DNA of 64,000 bases from Gammaproteobacteria bacterium. GTDB lineage: Bacteria > Pseudomonadota > Gammaproteobacteria > Pseudomonadales > Azotimanducaceae. A program made the position numbers and the translations under genes. Positions 23,499-33,113 of this stretch are shown one piece after another (within the stretch, counting starts at the first letter, position 1; each line of letters begins with the position of its first letter). The stretch is taken from positions 1 to 64,000 of the forward strand of contig SMWF01000051.1 in the NCBI GenBank assembly GCA_004357385.1, written 5' to 3'. The notes beneath the pieces were generated by a model that made no database searches, was not told the DNA's origin, and saw only the letters and a program-made list of their open reading frames with translations.

Positions 23499-24911
23499 TC
23501 AGAGGCTGTAGTACATCTCGAATTCGGCAGGATGGGTCGTGGCGTTCAGGTAATCCACTTCTTCCTGCTTCAGCGCGAGATAGCCGTCGATCAGGCTATT
23601 GGAGAACACGCCTCCGGCGTTCAGGAAGTCGCGGTCGGCATCGAGCGCTGCCAGTGACGTCTCCAGGGACGGTGACACGGTGGGAACGCCTTCCAGTTCC
23701 TCGGCCGACAGGTCGTACATGTCTTTGTCCAGAGGGTCGCCGGGATGGATCTTGTTCTGGATCCCGTCGAGGCCGGCCATCAACATCGACGCGAAGGTCA
23801 GATAGGGGTTGCCGGCGCTGTCCGGAAAGCGAACTTCGACCCGATAAGCCTTCGGGTTGCCTCCCTGGATGTAAGGAACTCGCACGCCGGCTGATCGGTT
23901 ACGCGCCGAGTAGGCCAGCAGCGTCGGTGCTTCGAATCCCGGAATCAGACGCTTGTATGAGTTGGTGCTGGCGTTGGAAAACGCATTGATCGCACGGGCG
24001 TGCTTCATGATGCCGCCGACGTAGTACAACGCCGTCTCGGACAAGCCCGCGTAGGCATCGCCGTGGAACACGTTCTCACCGCCTGCAAAAATCGATTGGT
24101 GCACGTGCATCCCGCTGCCGTTGTCGCCGACCAGGGGCTTGGGCATGAATGTTGCCGTTTTGCCATACGCATGGGCCACGTTCTGCACGACGTACTTGTA
24201 GATCTGTACCTCATCGGCCTTGCGCACCAGGGTATTGAACAGCACGCCAATCTCACCCTGTCCCGCGGTACCCACCTCGTGGTGATGTACTTCGATGGTC
24301 AGACCCATGGCGGCCATGGTGGTGCACATCGCGCTACGCAGGTCCATGGCGGAGTCGACGGGCGGCACCGGAAAATAGCCGCCCTTGATGCGCGGCCGGT
24401 GGCCGATGTTGCCGCCTTCGAACTCGGCGTGCGACTCCCAGGCGGCTTCTTCGGCGGAGATCGCGTAGGACGAGCCTTCCATCGACACCTTCCAGCGCAC
24501 GTCGTCGAACACGAAAAACTCGTTTTCAGGACCGAAATAGGCGGCATCGCCAATGCCGGTGGACTTCAGATACGCCTCAGCGAGTTTGGCGACGGACCGG
24601 GGATCGCGGTCGTAGGGCTGCATGGTGCTGGGTTCGACGATGTCACAGCGCAGATTGACCGTGGTCTCGTCACGGAACGGATCGAGCACCGGCGTCGTAT
24701 CGTCGAGCATCAGGATCATGTCGGAATCGTCGATCGGCTTCCAGCCGGCGATCGAGGAGCCGTCGAACATGATGCCGTCTTCGAAACTGTCCGAATCGAT
24801 GCGGCTCGCGGGAACGGTGGTGTGCTGCTCCTTGCCGCGCGGATCGGTAAAACGCAGGTCGACCCAAGCTGCGTCGTTGTCTTTGATCATTTTTACGGTG
24901 TTTTCTGACAT
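23499..24911 (-). CDS. glnA: Glutamine synthetase type I
   Basis: This 470-residue dodecameric enzyme makes glutamine from glutamate, ammonia and ATP. Conserved blocks include [21 protein letters not shown], the [10 protein letters not shown] loop, SANRKALRVPY-type [14 protein letters not shown] and [12 protein letters not shown]. The adenylylation site Tyr is in [11 protein letters not shown], so GlnE control is expected. A sigma-54 promoter lies about 100 bases upstream of the start codon and a strong terminator follows the gene, so it is a single-gene transcript of the NtrC regulon. Confidence 0.99.
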
Positions 24912-25014
24912 CGGTGGTACCGCTCCAAAATCGGTTGATTGGCCAAAGACCGCCCTATCCCCCAGGACGGGAAATGCTTAGGTGAGACTCTTCGTTACTC
25001 TTTCGCAGAGTAAG

Positions 25015-25029
25015 GCAAATAGTGTGCCA
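25015..25029 (-). promoter_or_regulatory. Sigma-54 (RpoN) promoter of glnA
   Basis: The minus strand reads TGGCACACTATTTGC, a full match to the TGGCAC-N5-TTGC consensus. It predicts a transcript start near 25003 and a leader of about 90 bases before glnA. Two weak NtrC-like dyads lie upstream (25039-25055 and 25081-25097), each matching only about 9 of 14 conserved positions, so the enhancer location is uncertain. Confidence 0.85.
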
Positions 25030-25117
25030 GTGCCAAGTTGCATTGATCTGGGGCTGTCCCGGGTCCAAGACGCTGCGGTCTGCACCTTCGGCATGCGTCG
25101 AAGTCCAGTACGCCCCT

Positions 25118-25348
25118 TTATGGTGCGCATACGCGCAGGCGGATGCGGATCTCGTTGTTGGTTTCGGATGTCTCCAGCAGCTCATGGCCGTGGACCCGAC
25201 ACCAGCTGGGAATGTCATGCAGTACGCCGGGATCGGTCGCGACGATTTCCAGGACGTCGCCTGCGGCAAGCTCACGCACCCTGTCCTGGGTGCGGATCAC
25301 CGGAATCGGGCACAACATTCCCCGGGTATCGAGCTGCGCCTCAGACAT
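25118..25348 (-). CDS. TusA/SirA-family sulfur carrier
   Basis: A 76-residue protein with the TusA fold: LDTRGMLCPIPVIRTQ (persulfide Cys13 in the CPxP motif), GDVLEIVATDPG and SWCRVHGHEL. TusA-type carriers receive a persulfide from a desulfurase and hand it to a thiolating enzyme. Its start overlaps the stop of the PP-loop gene by 8 bases, so the two are co-translated and probably act together in sulfur transfer to tRNA. Confidence 0.93.
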   Translation of the reverse strand: MSEAQLDTRGMLCPIPVIRTQDRVRELAAGDVLEIVATDPGVLHDIPSWCRVHGHELLETSETNNEIRIRLRVCAP

Positions 25349-26420
25349 GCCAGCGCTCTGGAATTTCTTGCGGGGCGTAAGGCGTCACCGTCAGTACTTC
25401 GGAGACGCCGTTGGGATGGTGCACGCTCATCGTAACTTCTGCGGCATCGCGGCCCTGACTGTAACGGGCCGCAATACGCGCCGCCTGTTCGATGTCAGCG
25501 GCGTTCGGGGCGCCATCGATAAGGGTCAGCGGACCGCGGTGGCTTTCGCAGCGCAGGTGCGCGAACTGCTTGCGATAGCCCTCGAGATAGTTGTTCTCAC
25601 CTTCTTCCCGGCCGACAATCAACTTGTAGGTCTCGGAGGGGCGGATATGCCGGCCGACCTTCAACAGCATGATGTCGTCGAGTTCGTAGTCTCTCTTACC
25701 CCGGGCAGACCACAGATCCGCCAACTTGGCGGAATAGCTCTTGTCCGTCAGGAAGCAGCAGCCGCCCGCGGGTTGGGCGTAGTCGGTCAGCCCGAACTGC
25801 TCGGCGAGCGCCATCTGCGGTTTGCGGTTGCGGCCGTGAAAACCGTACAAGGCATCGCGATCCACCCAGCCCTCGCGCTCGGGCAGGGTCTCGGGCAGAT
25901 GTTGTGCACATAAGGGGCGCAGCAATCGGTCGTGCGCGCCGGATTCGCGCGCGATCAGCGGCATGGTCTCTTTGCGCTGGGATTTCGGGCGTTGACCGAT
26001 CACTTCACCGGTGATGATGAAATCGAAGCCGTTCTCCTCCATGAAGCCCCAGGCCTGGGCCTTGTTGACCATGAAGATCTTGCAGTCCAGACACGGATTC
26101 AGATGCTGACCGTAGCCGTAGCGGGGGTTCAGGACGATGTCTTTGTATTCTTCCGAGACGTCGATGATGTTGAGCTTGATGCCGAGTTGCTCAGCGACCC
26201 ACAGCGCGTTGTTGCGCTTAGGCTTGGCGCGGTCCTTGGCCCGAATCGCGTGGGTGTGCCCCTCTACGCAGAAGCCCGTGTAGAAGTTCAGCCCTTGGAC
26301 CTCGATCCCTTGCTCCTGGATCACCTTCGCGGCCAGCATGGAGTCCAGCCCGCCCGAGATCAGCGCCACGGCACGGCGGGGCCGGTCAGGGTTGGAGATC
26401 GCTTTGCTTTGGGCGGTCAT
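25341..26420 (-). CDS. PP-loop ATPase, tRNA thiolation-type (MnmA/ThiI superfamily)
   Basis: A 359-residue adenylating enzyme. The PP-loop is at the very N terminus (ALISGGLDSMLAAKVIQ, about residues 19-35), without the THUMP domain of ThiI. A CxxC (NPCLDCKIFMV) and a GGCCFLTD motif supply candidate catalytic cysteines, and ITGEVIGQRPKSQ is the second nucleotide loop. The C-terminal third resembles the NFACT-R/DUF814-like RNA-binding segment. Databases often call such proteins 'tRNA (5-methylaminomethyl-2-thiouridylate)-methyltransferase', a misleading name. It occupies the position of thiI beside glnA in pseudomonads. 4- or 2-thiouridine synthesis is an inference. Confidence 0.8.
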   Translation of the reverse strand: MTAQSKAISNPDRPRRAVALISGGLDSMLAAKVIQEQGIEVQGLNFYTGFCVEGHTHAIRAKDRAKPKRNNALWVAEQLGIKLNIIDVSEEYKDIVLNPRYGYGQHLNPCLDCKIFMVNKAQAWGFMEENGFDFIITGEVIGQRPKSQRKETMPLIARESGAHDRLLRPLCAQHLPETLPEREGWVDRDALYGFHGRNRKPQMALAEQFGLTDYAQPAGGCCFLTDKSYSAKLADLWSARGKRDYELDDIMLLKVGRHIRPSETYKLIVGREEGENNYLEGYRKQFAHLRCESHRGPLTLIDGAPNAADIEQAARIAARYSQGRDAAEVTMSVHHPNGVSEVLTVTPYAPQEIPERWHV

Positions 26421-26611
26421 GGCGTGGACGTCGCGGTCGGGGCGGCGAGTCTAACACCCGGCCGTCCCAAATAAACGCGGGAAGCTGAGCGGATTCCAGC
26501 GGCTACGCCGGCAAGCATCCAGCAGCGTGACGCGCAATTACCTGCCGGAGTAAGTCGCGTAAACTAGCAGCCTGGCCGGCTCGCGACGAAAAGGGTTATC
26601 AGAAATAAGGG

Positions 26612-26629
26612 GAGGCGCTAAAGCGCCTC
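26612..26629 (+). terminator. Hairpin between divergent genes (terminator or attenuator)
   Basis: GAGGCGC-TAAA-GCGCCTC is followed by TCTTTGTG, an intrinsic-terminator shape on the plus strand 38 bases before the parvulin gene. No plus-strand gene ends here, so it would stop a short leader or small RNA. A very weak promoter (TTACCT at 26538 with TAAACT at 26560) lies upstream. Confidence 0.45.
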
Positions 26630-26666
26630 TCTTTGTGTTAGCGAGCCGAATTCCGAACTGAAGAGG

Positions 26667-27587
26667 ATGCGAGATAAATTGCGAAATTTGGCCAAAGAAC
26701 CCCTCATCCAGTTCCTGCTCATCGGGGCGTGCATCTACGGCGCATATGCCTGGTTTGGCACCCCGGACGAAGACGTCACCGACAACACCATCATCGTCGA
26801 TGCAGCCCGGATAGATTCGTTTATCGGCCAGTGGCAACGGCGTTGGAATCGCCCGCCGACCCGCCGGGAACTCGACGGCGTGATCAATGCGTTTGTCCGC
26901 GAGGACATTCTCTACCGGGCAGCGCTCGCCATGGGACTGGATCAGGATGATCCCATCACCCGGCGGCGCATGGCCCAGAAGCTGGAATTCCTGACCAACG
27001 ATATCGCGCTGTTCAAGGAGCCGGTGCCCGGCGAGCTCGAGCGGTATTTCGAGGACAATCAGGCGCGTTACCGCGACCCCGACCTGATCACCTTCAGCCA
27101 GGTGTTTTTCGACCCCGACGCGCGCGAAGACGCTACGCTGGACGATGCGGCTGAAATGCTGGCGCAACTGCAGGTAGTCGGAGAGCCCGACCCGGCAACA
27201 CTCACTGCCGGCGACCGATTCATGCTGCAGAATTACTTCTCGGCGGCTTCCGAACTGGAGGTCCGTCGCCAGTTGGGTACGGGTTTCACAGAAGCCGTCA
27301 TGCAGCTCGAGCCAGGACGGTGGCACGGTCCCGTGCTGTCCGGCTTCGGCGTACACCTGGTCTATGTTTACCAGCTTGCCGTAGCACCAGCGCCTGAGTT
27401 CGAGGACGTCCAGCAGCAGGTGCTCGAAAACTGGCAGTCCGAGCAGCAGGAGGATTTCAACGAGACGTTTTTCGAAAGCCTCAAGAGCCGTTACGAGATC
27501 GTGATCGCGGAGCCGCCGGCCGGGGCGGTGCTCGAGATCTCTTCGGATTCGGGTGCACAAGGACCAGCGGCCAATCCTGCGTCATGA
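26667..27587 (+). CDS. Membrane-anchored parvulin-type peptidyl-prolyl isomerase
   Basis: A 306-residue protein with one N-terminal membrane helix (about 14-30), a SurA/PpiC-like helical arm, and a parvulin core from about residue 140 (LITFSQVFFDPD, then VLSGFGVHLVYVYQL, the counterpart of the 'GYH-I-K-V' end strand). Parvulins assist folding of exported proteins. Its stop overlaps the next gene's start by 4 bases (ATGA), so it is co-translated with the HupE-like membrane protein. The start is uncertain: AAGAGG directly abuts the ATG; a TTG four codons later is better spaced. Confidence 0.85.
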   Translation: MRDKLRNLAKEPLIQFLLIGACIYGAYAWFGTPDEDVTDNTIIVDAARIDSFIGQWQRRWNRPPTRRELDGVINAFVREDILYRAALAMGLDQDDPITRRRMAQKLEFLTNDIALFKEPVPGELERYFEDNQARYRDPDLITFSQVFFDPDAREDATLDDAAEMLAQLQVVGEPDPATLTAGDRFMLQNYFSAASELEVRRQLGTGFTEAVMQLEPGRWHGPVLSGFGVHLVYVYQLAVAPAPEFEDVQQQVLENWQSEQQEDFNETFFESLKSRYEIVIAEPPAGAVLEISSDSGAQGPAANPAS

Positions 27588-28579
27588 AAACCAGACGAGC
27601 GGTTGGGTTGTTATTTGGCCTGCTCGTGGCTGCCCCGAGCGTGTTCGCGGACGAGATCCGCCCGGCGCTGCTGGAGATTAACGAACGGGACGGGGGCTGG
27701 GTCGAGGTGACCTGGAAAGTACCGATGCGCGGCAATCAGGTCGAGGACCTCACGCCCGTTCTTCCCGAGTTTCTCGAGCCGCTAGGTGCCGGTTCCGGCC
27801 AACGGGTGCCAGGCGCCTGGCTCGAATACCGCACCTACCGCAATGCGGGACAAACCCTGACGGGCGCAACGCTGCGCATCGATGGGCTCGCTGCGCTGCC
27901 GACGGACGTGCTGATACGGGTCTCGTTGCAGGACGGCACGCAACACTCGGCGGTTCTGCGTTCGGGCAATGAATCCTTCACCATTCCGGAACAGGCCACC
28001 CGGGTCCAGTTGGCCGTTTCGTACTGGCAGATCGGCACCATCCACATTCTGGAAGGGTTCGATCACCTGCTGTTTTTACTGACCCTGTTGTTGATCGTTA
28101 CCGGCCTCTGGCCACTCCTTAAAACCGTTACCGCGTTCACTGTGGCCCACAGCCTGACGCTGGCACTGGCGACGCTCGGTATCGTGAACTTCCCGTCGGC
28201 CCCCACCGAGGCCGTGATTTCGCTCAGTATCATGCTGCTGGCGGTTGAAGCCGTGCGCAAAAGTTCCGGGGAGACAACTCTCAGCGAGCGCTTCCCGTGG
28301 TTGATCGCCTTCACCTTTGGACTGGTGCACGGGCTCGGCTTTGCGGGGGCATTGTCCGAAATCGGGGTCCCGCAGAACGAAGTACCGCTGGCGCTGTTGA
28401 TGTTCAACGTGGGCGTCGAGACGGGCCAGGTGATGTTTGTGGTTGCCGTATCGGTGCTGCTCGCAGGTCTGCACAAGCTGCATAGTCGTTCCGGACTGCT
28501 GATGGCCCGAACGACTCCGTATGCCATTGGCGGCGTCGCCGCGTTCTGGACGCTGCAACGGATCAACGCGTTTCTGTAG
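27584..28579 (+). CDS. HupE/UreJ-family membrane protein
   Basis: A 331-residue protein with a signal peptide (cleaved near VFA-DE), a periplasmic beta domain (residues 25-140), and about six membrane helices carrying the family blocks GFDHLLFLLTLLL, TAFTVAHSLTLALA and FTFGLVHGLGFAGAL. The His-Asp residues of these blocks (FDH, AHS, VHG) are the presumed metal-path ligands. HupE/UreJ proteins are linked to nickel or cobalt uptake, but no hydrogenase or urease gene is in the window. The tight link to a parvulin recurs in marine gammaproteobacteria as far as I recall, with no known function. Confidence 0.88.
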   Translation: MKTRRAVGLLFGLLVAAPSVFADEIRPALLEINERDGGWVEVTWKVPMRGNQVEDLTPVLPEFLEPLGAGSGQRVPGAWLEYRTYRNAGQTLTGATLRIDGLAALPTDVLIRVSLQDGTQHSAVLRSGNESFTIPEQATRVQLAVSYWQIGTIHILEGFDHLLFLLTLLLIVTGLWPLLKTVTAFTVAHSLTLALATLGIVNFPSAPTEAVISLSIMLLAVEAVRKSSGETTLSERFPWLIAFTFGLVHGLGFAGALSEIGVPQNEVPLALLMFNVGVETGQVMFVVAVSVLLAGLHKLHSRSGLLMARTTPYAIGGVAAFWTLQRINAFL

Positions 28580-28652
28580 ACGCGATCGGGAGTGAGCGCG
28601 CAGCGGCGACCGCAAGAGGGGCAAGACCCCTGAGTGCGGTGTCAAGTTTGGT

Positions 28653-29216
28653 ATGGTCTGGCTATTCCTGGGGCTGACGGCAGGCGACAGTCCTGGGGTG
28701 ACGCGGCAGGTGGCGCGCAATGCGTTGCTGCTGACGTTCGCCCTGATCGTGATCTTCTGCGTGCTCGGTAGGTTTATCTTCGAGATGTTCGGAATCACCT
28801 TGCCGGCGTTTCGCATCACCGGCGGCATTCTGGTTGCCCTGATCGGTTACAACATGCTGCACGGTGAGCAGTCCAAAGTGCAGAACCCGACGGCTGAGGA
28901 CGCATCGGACACTCTGCAGACGCAGCTCTCGGTCGCGGTGAGCCCGTTGGCGGTGCCTATTCTCGCGGGGCCGGGTACCATTGCGACCGCGATGAACTTC
29001 GCTGCCGCCGGCGGCGACTACGAACTCGCAATCACCGCGTTGGCATTTGCCGTGTTGTGCGTCATTACTTACTTCTGCTTCGTCTTCGGCCAGGGTATGG
29101 TCCGCTTTCTCGGCCAGAGCGGGCTGAATGTGGTCACGCGGATGATGGGCCTGATCCTGGCGGTGATCGGGGTCCAGATGCTGATCGAAGGGATCAAGGG
29201 TGCGTTCATCGGATAA
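28653..29216 (+). pseudogene. MarC-family membrane protein, N-terminally truncated
   Basis: The open frame gives 187 residues that align with MarC from the end of the first helix on (WLFLGLTAGDSP, FGITLPAFRITGGILVALIG, VPILAGPGTIATAMN, MMGLILAVIGVQMLIEG). The first 25 or so residues, which hold the first membrane helix and its conserved DP-G turn, are missing. Upstream the frame reads charged, non-membrane residues to a stop at 28593, and no other frame restores the helix. There is no ribosome binding site at the ATG. The gene is probably a broken copy; a functional short form cannot be excluded. A 5-pair hairpin (AGGGG/CCCCT) lies at the break. Confidence 0.75.
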
Positions 29217-29269
29217 ACCCGGGCAGGCGCACGTGCGTGAACGCACTCCGCAAGAAATGGAATTCGCTG

Positions 29270-31120
29270 ATGAGAAAGCTCCTGCTGGTGCTGCTGATCT
29301 TACCGTTGCTTCTGCTGGCGGTATCGATCGGTTTCGTCCTGCTGGTTGATCCGAACGATTACCGCGAAGAGCTGGAAGGAATCGGCAGCGACCTGTTGGG
29401 CCGCAAACTCGTGATCCGCGGGGCGATGAAGATCGTACCCGGGCTGGTGCCCGGGTTGAGCATGGCTGACGTGACGGTGGGCAATCCGGATTGGGCGCAC
29501 GACCCTTACCTTGCGAAGCTGGAACAGATCGAGGGTCGAATCGAGCTGCTGCAGGCGCTGCGTGGCAATCTGGAGTTGGCACACCTGACGGTGTCCGGGG
29601 GTGAGATCTTTCTCGAAGACCGGCCGGACGGGACCGACAACTACACGTTTGCCGAGAGTGGTGCGGGTACCGACGAAACCGACATCGGCGATCGTGTGCC
29701 GCGCCTGCGTCTGAGGGACATCACCATCAGCCACCGCGCGGCGAGCGAACTCAGCTGGGGAATCCAGGTCGATTCGGCGGTATTCGACAAGTCCCCTGAC
29801 AATTCGCGGCGGATTACGGCGGACGGGATCTTCGCGGGGGTCCCGATCAGCATGGAGGGAACGCGCGGAATCCAGGCGGGCTCTCCCTGGCAGTGGGTCG
29901 CCCGGATCAAGGATGACGCGGAACTGCGTGCCACAGGCCGTATTAGGGATCTTTACACTACAAACGGATTGCCGGTAACCGCCAGCGGGCCGGATGTCGG
30001 AGCGCTGTCTGCGCGCTTCGGATTGACCGTGCCGGTCAGTGACGGGTTTGAGCTGAAGGGCAACCTGCGGCTGCATGGGGATACATACGCCCTGGACTCC
30101 ATCGAGGGGACGGTAGCCAAGACCGATGTGAAAGGCGAACTGAGTGTGGTGAACGGGGCGTCAGCGCCTCGGATCGATGCCACGTTTGCGTCGCAGACGC
30201 TCGAGTTCACGGGCGCCTGGCTTGGGGATTCCTCCGGGTCCAAGATCATCCCCGAGTTTTCCGTGCCCGTGGAGGCGCTGCGGGCGATCGACCTGGATAT
30301 CGACTATCGGGCGTCGCAGATCATCTCCGAGCACGGGGCGCTGACGGACCTGAAATTGAAGCTGAGCCTGGTTGCGGGGCGCTTGAACATCTCGGAGATT
30401 TCGGCGACGGATTCGAGCGGCGCGTCGTTGCATGGTCAGTTCGAACTCGATGCGAGCGGCGCCACACCGAACATGACCGCGCGGCTGGACGCCGATTCGT
30501 TCGACCTGGGGTTGTTGTTGAAAACCCTGGGCTGGTTCGATGGCATCCAGGAGCAAATCGACATCGATTTGAAGCTGGCCGCGAGCGGTCACGACCGGGC
30601 AAGTGTGTTGAGCGGCCTGACCGGGCGGTTGGTGATCGTCAGCGGTGGTGGGAGTATTGACAGCAAAAACTTCGACCTGTGGGCGGCGGATCTCGTCACC
30701 ACGATGCTGTCGCCCAAGTGGCGCGGAGAAGACAACACCACCATCGAATGTGGTGTGGTGGGCCTGGAGGTCAAGCAGGGCGTTGCGACGGTCGAACATC
30801 TCCTGGTTGATACCGAGCGGATTACGATCGGCGGGAGTGGGAGTGTCAACCTCATCGAGGAGACCTTCGACCTGGTGCTCGCTCCCCAACCGAAAAAGGC
30901 CAGCCTCGTCTCGCTGGCACGGCCGGTCAGGATCGCAGGGCCCTGGTCCGCGCCGGATGTTGCGACCATCAAAGTGCCGACATTCAGACGCATGGCCAAA
31001 ATGGGAACCCTTGCAGTCCTGAACCCGGTGTTTCTCGTGGCGTCATTCAGCCATACCGGCCAGATCGACAAGAACGCGTGCATCGAGGCGGTTAAAGCGG
31101 TGCAGGAAGCTTTCGAGTAA
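29270..31120 (+). CDS. AsmA family envelope protein (second copy)
   Basis: A 616-residue protein with an N-terminal membrane helix (residues 3-23), the AsmA opening DPNDYREELEGIGSDLLGRKLVIRG, a long beta-rich periplasmic region with 'LSMADVTVGNPDWA' (typical of AsmA repeats), and the C-terminal module (GSGSVNLIEETFDLVLAPQPKK). It is unrelated in detail to the AsmA protein beside mutY and may serve another lipid-bridge role. The start was set at the ATG preceded by GGAA; a GTG 11 codons upstream is also open. It follows the marC remnant by 53 bases. Confidence 0.88.
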   Translation: MRKLLLVLLILPLLLLAVSIGFVLLVDPNDYREELEGIGSDLLGRKLVIRGAMKIVPGLVPGLSMADVTVGNPDWAHDPYLAKLEQIEGRIELLQALRGNLELAHLTVSGGEIFLEDRPDGTDNYTFAESGAGTDETDIGDRVPRLRLRDITISHRAASELSWGIQVDSAVFDKSPDNSRRITADGIFAGVPISMEGTRGIQAGSPWQWVARIKDDAELRATGRIRDLYTTNGLPVTASGPDVGALSARFGLTVPVSDGFELKGNLRLHGDTYALDSIEGTVAKTDVKGELSVVNGASAPRIDATFASQTLEFTGAWLGDSSGSKIIPEFSVPVEALRAIDLDIDYRASQIISEHGALTDLKLKLSLVAGRLNISEISATDSSGASLHGQFELDASGATPNMTARLDADSFDLGLLLKTLGWFDGIQEQIDIDLKLAASGHDRASVLSGLTGRLVIVSGGGSIDSKNFDLWAADLVTTMLSPKWRGEDNTTIECGVVGLEVKQGVATVEHLLVDTERITIGGSGSVNLIEETFDLVLAPQPKKASLVSLARPVRIAGPWSAPDVATIKVPTFRRMAKMGTLAVLNPVFLVASFSHTGQIDKNACIEAVKAVQEAFE

Positions 31121-31295: not shown

Positions 31296-33113
31296 ATGGA
31301 CGCCAAACACTTAAGAAACATCGCCATTGTCGCGCACGTCGACCATGGCAAGACCACGCTGGTTGATTGTCTGCTGAAGCAAACCGGGACGCTGGGTGAT
31401 CGAGGCAACGCGGTCGAGCGAGTGCTCGACAGCAACGATCAGGAGCGCGAGCGCGGTATTACGATACTGTCGAAGTGCACCGCGGTGCGCTACCGGGATC
31501 ATCGGATCAACATCGTCGACACCCCCGGCCACGCCGATTTCGGTGGTGAAGTAGAGCGCATCCTGTCAATGGTCGACTCGGTGCTGCTGCTGGTGGACGC
31601 GGTCGACGGACCGATGCCGCAGACCCGCTTCGTGACCAGCAAGGCCTTTGCCCAGGGCCTGAATCCCATCGTCGTGATCAACAAGATCGATCGGCCGGGC
31701 GCCCGCCCGCATCAGGTGGTGGACGAGGTGTTCGATCTGTTTGACGCGTTGGGTGCGACCGAGGAGCAACTCGATTTTCCGATCGTGTTCAGCTGCGCGA
31801 CCGAAGGCACCTCGAGTCTCGACCCGGAAGCTGTGCAAGGCGATATGACCACCCTGCTCGACACGATCATCGCCAAGGTTCCCGCGCCTGACGTCGACGT
31901 CGATGGACCGTTCCAACTGCAGATCAGTGCGCTCGACTACTCGAGCTATGTCGGTGTCATCGGCATCGGTCGAATCAATCGAGGGCAGATAGCGACCAAT
32001 ACGCCAGTGGTGGTCATGGATCATGAGGGTAATCGACGCAATGCGCGCGTGCTCGCGCTATTGGGTCATCATGGCCTGGAGCGGATTGAACTCCCCGAGG
32101 CGGTTGCCGGCGACATCGTCTGCGTAACCGGGGTCGACGGAATCGGGATATCCGATACGTTGTGTTCCCCGGAAGCGCCCGAGGCCTTGCCCGCGCTGGC
32201 GATCGACGAGCCCACCGTGCGGATGAGTTTTTGCGTCAATACCTCGCCCTACGCGGGCGTCGATGGAAAGTATCTGACCAGCCGGCAGCTGCGCGAACGG
32301 CTGTTCAGGGAAGCCTCCTACAATGTAGCGTTGAGGGTGGAGGAAACCGTGGATCCGGACGTGTTCAACGTGTCCGGCCGGGGTGAGTTGCACCTTGCCG
32401 TGCTGATCGAAACGATGCGTCGGGAAGGGTACGAGATGGCCGTTTCGAGGCCGCAGGTCATTACCCGTGAGGAGGATGGCGTCACCCTCGAACCCTTCGA
32501 GGAGCTGACGATTGATATTGAAACAGGTCACCAGGGCAAGGTGATGGAGGCGCTGGGCGAACGCCGCGCAGAGCTTGTGAATATGGAGGTCGGGGGCGAT
32601 GGCCGAAACCGGCTGAGCTATCGGATTGCGTCCCGGGCGCTGATGGGCTTTCGACCACAGTTTCTGTCCATGACCAACGGTACCGGCATCATGTCCTATG
32701 GACCGGCCGGGCACGCCAAGGCGGTGCCGGGTGGGCTGGGCGAACGCAGTAACGGCGTGTTGGTGTCGATGGTCGAAGGTAAGGCGGTGGGCTACGCATT
32801 GTTCAATCTGCAGAATCGCGGGCGTCTGTTCGTGGGTCCCAATGATCCCGTTTACGAGGGCATGGTCATCGGGATCAACAGCCGTGATTCGGACCTGGTA
32901 GTGAACCCGACGAAAGAGAAGAAGCTCACCAATGTCCGCGCTGCTGGAACCGATGAGAACATCCTGTTGAGCTCGCCGATTCGAATGAGCCTCGAGCAAT
33001 CCCTCGAATTCATCAATCTCGACGAGCTGGTTGAGATCACACCGAAAGCGATTCGCATTCGTAAGCGCCAGTTGCGCGAGCACGAACGCCGCCGCACGGC
33101 GCGCGCCGGTTGA
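31296..33113 (+). CDS. typA: Ribosome-associated GTPase TypA/BipA
   Basis: A 605-residue translational GTPase with [16 protein letters not shown] (G1), RGITI (G2), [16 protein letters not shown] (G3), NKIDRPGA (G4), then the EF-G-like domains III and V and the family C-terminal part ([21 protein letters not shown]). BipA helps 50S assembly and stress adaptation. The true start is the ATG at 31296, although the frame is open further upstream. Together with dtd it forms a two-gene unit. In pseudomonads typA lies beside thiI-glnA; here four genes separate them. Confidence 0.97.

Follow-up and report, generated by a model that had tools for sequence, protein, structure and literature searches.

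A TusA-linked PP-loop ATPase with an NFACT-R_2 domain as a probable replacement for ThiI

The standard PP-loop thiolations of tRNA in bacteria yield s2U34, s2C32, and 4-thiouridine (s4U). The usual gene for the last of these is thiI, and ThiI is commonly taken as the marker of s4U. TusA acts as a persulfide carrier through the cysteine of its CPxP motif. A different route to s4U has reportedly been foreseen: Burroughs and Aravind are said to have predicted in 2014 that the NFACT-R domain of other prokaryotic proteins, together with TusA-like proteins, functions in a new pathway of tRNA 4-thiouridylation. We found no experimental test of this family in the literature searched, most subscription papers lying outside the reach of the search. 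The available portion of one account describes s4U8 as a near-UV sensor that guards bacterial tRNA from degradation, and mentions a CxxC-C MnmA of Thermus thermophilus that has a [4Fe-4S] cluster (PMC8584467). Here we describe a pair of genes, within a 64,000-nucleotide stretch of DNA (the window), that is likely to encode a dedicated tRNA 4-thiouridine synthase in the stead of ThiI, with s4U8 as its probable product.

The gene pair and its predicted structure

The pair lies on the minus strand and comprises an ORF of 359 residues (25341-26420), which on the basis of its Pfam domains and fold match is a PP-loop ATPase with an NFACT-R_2 domain and a predicted tRNA uridine 4-sulfurtransferase, and a TusA-family sulfur carrier of 76 residues (25118-25348). 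The two genes share an 8 nt start/stop overlap, ATGTCTGA on the minus strand (25341-25348), and no promoter-like sites were found in 24800-26750, where 0.5 would be expected by chance. A sequence-only reading of this DNA had described a co-translated carrier and a PP-loop enzyme that lacks THUMP, has its own CxxC and CC motifs and a putative RNA-binding C terminus, and lies next to glnA. That description proved accurate: both ORFs lie within the coordinates that it gave, on the minus strand and with the 8 nt overlap; no THUMP row appears for the PP-loop ORF in Pfam at E ≤ 1; both cysteine motifs can be read directly, as NPCLDC and GGCC, and their cysteines are invariant in an alignment of 59 sequences; the C terminus matches NFACT-R_2 (PF18297) at 1.5e-35; and glnA occupies 23499-24911 of the minus strand.

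The NFACT-R_2 match (25350-25655, minus strand; residues 255-356, counted without the initial Met) reaches 124.9 bits against a cut-off of 26.9, and its fold matches the NFACT-R of RqcH/FBPS. It is fused in one ORF to a HUP catalytic domain that is also over its curated cut-off (tRNA_Me_trans, PF03054, 5.4e-13). The ThiI PP-loop domain PF02568 matches as well (2.3e-7, 31.1 bits against a cut-off of 20.5), and no rhodanese domain was found in the ORF with Pfam. The PP-loop motif SGGLDS (residues 22-27; 26340-26357, minus strand), read directly, is invariant in the 59-sequence alignment. None of the 10 NCBIfam models listed for the ORF reaches its cut-off. The best of them, MnmA, scores 53 bits against a cut-off of 284 and covers residues 17-147 only; a TIGR00420 match of 43.6 bits, below the family cut-off, marks the MnmA/ThiI-like PP-loop (HUP) catalytic region at 26001-26369 on the minus strand. 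ThiI (TIGR00342) scores 27.9 bits against 264.5, over the PP-loop part only. Four sequences of solved structures match the ORF at E ≤ 0.001, all of them MnmA/TrmU, and in these alignments NPCLDC is paired with the NPDxxC of MnmA, and the second Cys of GGCC with the second conserved Cys of MnmA. The smaller ORF is a TusA by Pfam (PF01206, 4.6e-23, 81.3 bits against a cut-off of 28.6), with CPxP present as CPIP (25301-25312, minus strand, read directly), and scores 61 bits with the NCBIfam equivalog model for TusA, under the cut-off of 78.

We modeled the PP-loop protein with AlphaFold2 from the 59-sequence alignment, which holds the window protein and 58 of 80 named loci. The model has a mean pLDDT of 86.5 and a pTM of 0.78, with low confidence at residues 51-55. 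In this model the PP-loop half resembles T. maritima ThiI (4kr6_A; Z 14.2, rmsd 2.7, 166 residues aligned), LarE (6b2m_C; Z 13.1, rmsd 3.3, 171 aligned), and MnmA (2deu_A; Z 12.4, rmsd 3.1, 174 aligned). Because YcfA (9kq6_E) outscores ThiI by one unit (Z 15.2), the fold alone cannot choose among PP-loop enzymes. The modeled C-terminal half resembles RqcH (8s1u_H; Z 14.1, rmsd 2.1, 101 aligned). No solved structure fits the whole chain: the top Foldseek rows reach TM-scores of 0.24-0.38 of the query, the best for the whole chain being MnmA at about 0.36. Such a poor fit of the model is what would be expected of a new pairing of domains.

Thiolation genes in the assembly and exclusion of ThiI

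The sequence-only reading had asked whether thiI and mnmA occur elsewhere in the genome, and had named their joint presence among the things that would speak against a replacement of ThiI; of the two, mnmA alone was found. Profile searches of the window's assembly, which is 92.7% complete, returned nothing that reaches the TIGR00342 cut-off for ThiI. With PF02568, the PP-loop protein and MnmA were the only matches, and TIGR00342 gave weak PP-loop matches to the same two proteins. MnmA (427.7 bits against a cut-off of 236.95), TtcA (437.6 against 272), and TilS (TilS_N domain, 146.1 against 93.6) are present. The inventory of the sulfur relay covers TusA and TusE/DsrC; it contains a TusE/DsrC, which the model used does not tell apart, and three TusA paralogues. 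One is the TusA of the pair, one (G000:C105, near 7027) is canonical, with 96.2 bits against the NCBIfam cut-off of 78, and one (G000:C33, near 84415) falls below every cut-off. The pair's TusA shares 37% and 34% identity with the other two TusA paralogues of the genome and has a median identity of 53% to a compared set made up almost wholly of locus TusAs, a few distant ones of which fall in or near the paralogue range. By these identities, the pair-linked TusAs are likely to form a separate orthologous group.

As s2U34 and s2C32 have enzymes of their own here, s4U is the only standard PP-loop tRNA thiolation left without a known enzyme in this genome. We set aside s2U34 and s2C32 as likely products of the pair because the assembly contains MnmA, TtcA, a canonical TusA, and TusE/DsrC, and for the same reason s4U is a more probable target than s2U34. 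That the pair is a further s2U34 enzyme, or assists MnmA, might be suspected from the MnmA-like catalytic region, from the place of E. coli TusA in the MnmA sulfur relay, as given in the available portion of one source (PMC8584467), and from two pair-bearing relatives, G017 (91% complete) and G023 (96% complete), in which no MnmA was found over the cut-off, through an assembly gap or a real loss. This reading seems to us extremely improbable, since the window's genome has a full MnmA together with a canonical TusA and TusE/DsrC, and since an MnmA over the cut-off was found in 55 of the 58 relatives, including all 26 without the pair and 29 of the 32 with it; in a third pair-bearing relative, G014, MnmA is split over two contigs. 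Synthesis of s4U remains the preferred reading.

The PP-loop gene and ThiI almost never occur together. Among the 58 relatives, NFACT-R_2 was detected in 32 and ThiI over the cut-off in 11, with no genome carrying both and 15 carrying neither. NFACT-R_2 by itself is unspecific, being over the cut-off in five of 14 control genomes, but the 32 matches in relatives sit in ORFs that are also touched by the ThiI and MnmA PP-loop models. ThiI scores in the relatives split cleanly, with 11 genomes at 325 bits or more and the rest at 45 or less. A phylum-wide sample of 299 genomes (family by alignment A2 at E ≤ 1e-40; ThiI at E ≤ 1e-30, 108 over the cut-off) gave the PP-loop family in 46, ThiI in 109, both in none, and neither in 144. 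A class-wide sample of 229 genomes (both at E ≤ 1e-30; 16 ThiI over the cut-off) gave 112, 17, one, and 101, respectively; by family label, the PP-loop gene occurs in 82 families and ThiI in 17, with one in common. Under independence, 6.1, 16.8, and 8.3 genomes with both genes would be expected in the three samples, where zero, zero, and one were observed. The corresponding one-sided Fisher values, which ignore phylogeny, are 3.4e-5, 8.8e-11, and 1.2e-4; they are not true probabilities, because the three samples overlap one another and are drawn from related genomes, and both the PP-loop family and ThiI cluster by lineage. The sole genome with both genes, G562, is 82% complete with 3% contamination; its copy is of a three-cysteine form (see below), with no TusA in the 380 bp of downstream sequence. 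ThiI was over the cut-off in none of 12 further genomes or records picked from loci with the PP-loop gene, among them Methylobacter tundripaludum SV96, Oceanospirillum multiglobuliferum, S. selenatireducens DSM 17993, and a record of F. vincentii; beyond the phylum, the sampling for exclusion consists of one 2.1-Mb Fusobacterium record labelled plasmid. The many genomes with neither ThiI nor the PP-loop family indicate that the function is dispensable and that exclusion is not forced. These genomes may have no s4U, or may use a third enzyme.

The two genes also share a chromosomal slot. In all 11 ThiI-bearing relatives thiI adjoins glnA, divergently, and in six of them typA lies on its other side. 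In the window, glnA adjoins the pair and typA (31296-33113, plus strand) lies about 5 kb away. We fetched 29 loci of the 31 other relatives with the PP-loop gene, several on contigs that end early. All 29 have TusA after the PP-loop gene on the same strand; typA precedes the pair in 20, and glnA follows it in 19; ntrBC and/or a DUF4124 gene, without glnA, stands beside the pair in eight, and neither in two. In relatives, thiI and the pair occupy the same typA-glnA neighborhood on opposite strands. The sequence-only reading had placed the pair in the position of thiI, and the neighborhood bears this out, whereas the orientation differs: thiI is divergent from glnA and the window's pair is co-directional with it. 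As the strand differs, the neighborhood is the same but a one-step swap is not proved.

Some of these neighborhoods contain further genes. Between the pair and typA, the window carries ORFs that by eye are peptidyl-prolyl isomerase-, HupE-, MarC-, and AsmA-like (26667-31120), with no tblastn match at E ≤ 1e-4 in the loci of 40 relatives. A gene that looks like a cation diffusion facilitator by eye lies between tusA and glnA in L099 (6256-7668), L101, L078, L129, and L136.

Because the slot is common to both and genomes almost never carry both, the pair is probably a replacement for ThiI. The core of what the sequence-only reading proposed, a dedicated tRNA thiolation pair replacing ThiI, is largely supported by the lack of any ThiI over the cut-off, the near-total exclusion, and the common slot. 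It had suggested measuring s4U and s2U; s2U34 is an unlikely target, and s4U is the probable one.

Cysteine subtypes and linkage to TusA

Five cysteines, Cys51, 110, 113, 221, and 222 in full-length numbering, are invariant in the 59-sequence alignment. On the minus strand of the window, Cys51 lies in GFCVEGH (26268-26270 for the codon), Cys110 and Cys113, putative Fe-S ligands, lie in NPCLDC (26082-26099), and Cys221 and Cys222 lie in GGCC (25755-25766). We surveyed 163 fetched loci, which do not include every genome with a match, and obtained 160 distinct proteins. Of these, 152 have all five cysteines, and in seven the set is limited to Cys110, Cys113, and Cys222; the remaining one (L151), being truncated, is counted in neither subtype. 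The few three-Cys proteins were picked as low-scoring or distant matches, and five of the copies examined from the 112 class-wide genomes with the family belong to this subtype. CxxC plus C is present in the PP-loop domain of all eight proteins compared, from both subtypes. Cys51 and Cys221 are confined to the five-Cys subtype in the alignments. We rejected the CC pair as a core catalytic motif because Cys221 is absent from the three-Cys subtype as aligned and only the second Cys is family-wide. In a family tree with MnmA and ThiI as outgroups, the outgroups were placed inside the family.

Of 152 distinct five-Cys homologues, 131 have a TusA on the same strand no more than 1 kb downstream, as against none of seven three-Cys homologues (Fisher 2.7e-6, with kinship ignored and a small three-Cys set). 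A profile made from 125 locus TusA sequences gave no TusA match in any of the seven three-Cys loci, one of which has only 380 bp of downstream sequence. These loci (L141, L143, L144, L145, L146, L056, and L057) have other neighborhoods. Two homologues look misnamed in their annotations: L056 4010-4990 (Haliovirga) is called a "7-cyano-7-deazaguanine synthase" and the Fusobacterium animalis homologue an "MnmA/TRMU family protein." Among the 21 five-Cys homologues with no TusA seen within 1 kb downstream, 18 have at least 734 bp of downstream sequence and three lie in loci that end about 120 bp or less from the gene; L109 has a TusA upstream and L153 has one 3 kb downstream, the latter being the only TusA found when 17 of the 21 loci were searched with the profile. 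In the 134 linked loci, duplicates kept, the genes overlap or abut in 59 and lie within 60 bp (to the match start) in 63. The 80 named loci were the best among at least 511 candidates; 72 of them have TusA immediately downstream and one (L109) has it upstream, and in seven, two of them near contig ends, TusA was not detected.

The three-Cys proteins also bear on two other readings of the pair. One is that it thiolates RNA, either tRNA or rRNA, at a site or base other than C4 of U8, the exclusion of ThiI being lineage history. The available portion of one source places the NFACT-R of RqcH near the A-site finger of the large ribosomal subunit (PMC8012679), so the domain could guide a PP-loop enzyme to rRNA, and in sequence the window protein is closest to MnmA, not to ThiI. 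We regard this as unlikely, because the exclusion of ThiI in three samples and the common slot point to the same function, the ThiI and MnmA bit scores are similar in size across relatives, and the ThiI domain outscores the MnmA domain in six of seven three-Cys homologues. The other reading is that the pair serves a non-RNA acceptor, for instance in thiazole synthesis, by assuming the role of ThiI's rhodanese. A relative's ThiI has the ThiI_C thiazole domain (TIGR04271, 125.3 bits), which is lost along with ThiI, and the cofactor sulfur transferase LarE is a structural relative. NFACT-R_2, which a non-RNA enzyme would not need, is nevertheless over the cut-off in 32 relatives and in seven of seven three-Cys proteins, and we consider such a role very improbable. 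We retain tRNA 4-thiouridylation as the likely function of the pair in what follows.

Proposed mechanism and comparison with known systems

In the mechanism that we envisage, NFACT-R_2 would hold the tRNA in the place of THUMP, and the PP-loop domain would adenylate C4 of the uridine with ATP. A cysteine desulfurase would supply the sulfur, and the co-translated TusA, which would replace the fused rhodanese of ThiI, would carry it in persulfide form on its CPxP cysteine. From there the sulfur would reach the activated base via cysteines of the enzyme, probably with a [4Fe-4S] cluster that Cys110, Cys113, and Cys222 would ligate. We infer the substrate, the position, the cluster, and TusA as donor. 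By analogy with CxxC-C sulfur insertases, the three family-wide cysteines may hold the cluster, and Cys51 and Cys221 may work with TusA. It is plausible that TusA is a private sulfur donor; the assembly has three TusA paralogues, and 21 of 152 five-Cys homologues are unlinked.

The subtypes suggest a further scheme, which we put forward tentatively as possible rather than probable, with two grades of enzyme. A TusA-independent three-Cys form would take sulfide on its [4Fe-4S] cluster. A five-Cys form would have acquired Cys51 and Cys221 along with a co-translated TusA that serves it as a private persulfide relay. This form would be the most common s4U synthase in the sampled class and would have displaced ThiI at the typA-glnA slot, with NFACT-R taking the place of THUMP and TusA that of the fused rhodanese.

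The PP-loop gene is widespread and ordinary as a gene; what sets it apart is that it is a putative and easily tested replacement for ThiI. Should s4U be the product of the pair, genomes taken to lack it for want of ThiI have been mis-scored, the family being present in 112 of 229 genomes class-wide as against 17 for ThiI. The pair would also serve as a natural experiment on which components of a thiolation enzyme are exchangeable: the RNA-binding module, the sulfur carrier, and the cysteines.

Among known enzymes, the [4Fe-4S] sulfur insertases TtuA, NcsA, and LarE have CxxC and C conserved in a PP-loop domain of related fold, the cluster being putative in our protein; they differ in their auxiliary domain and carrier (TtuB for TtuA). 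MnmA/TrmU (TIGR00420) is the best sequence match for the catalytic domain, and its DxxC...C aligns with the CxxC...C of our enzyme, but the match covers no more than the first third of the MnmA model, and NFACT-R_2 replaces the remaining domains of MnmA. With ThiI, the enzyme shares SGGxDS, the chromosomal slot in relatives, the PP-loop fold as modeled, and a presumed product. It differs in having NFACT-R_2, a separate TusA, and a CxxC pair in place of THUMP and rhodanese, and in its score with the ThiI model. The closest counterpart is the pathway reportedly predicted in 2014, with the same arrangement, a HUP domain with an NFACT-R type domain and a TusA-like neighbor. By that account the pair is an instance of a system already predicted, and the idea is not new; the exclusion counts, the common typA-glnA slot, and the cysteine and TusA subtypes are added here, and the genomic tests fit the 2014 prediction.
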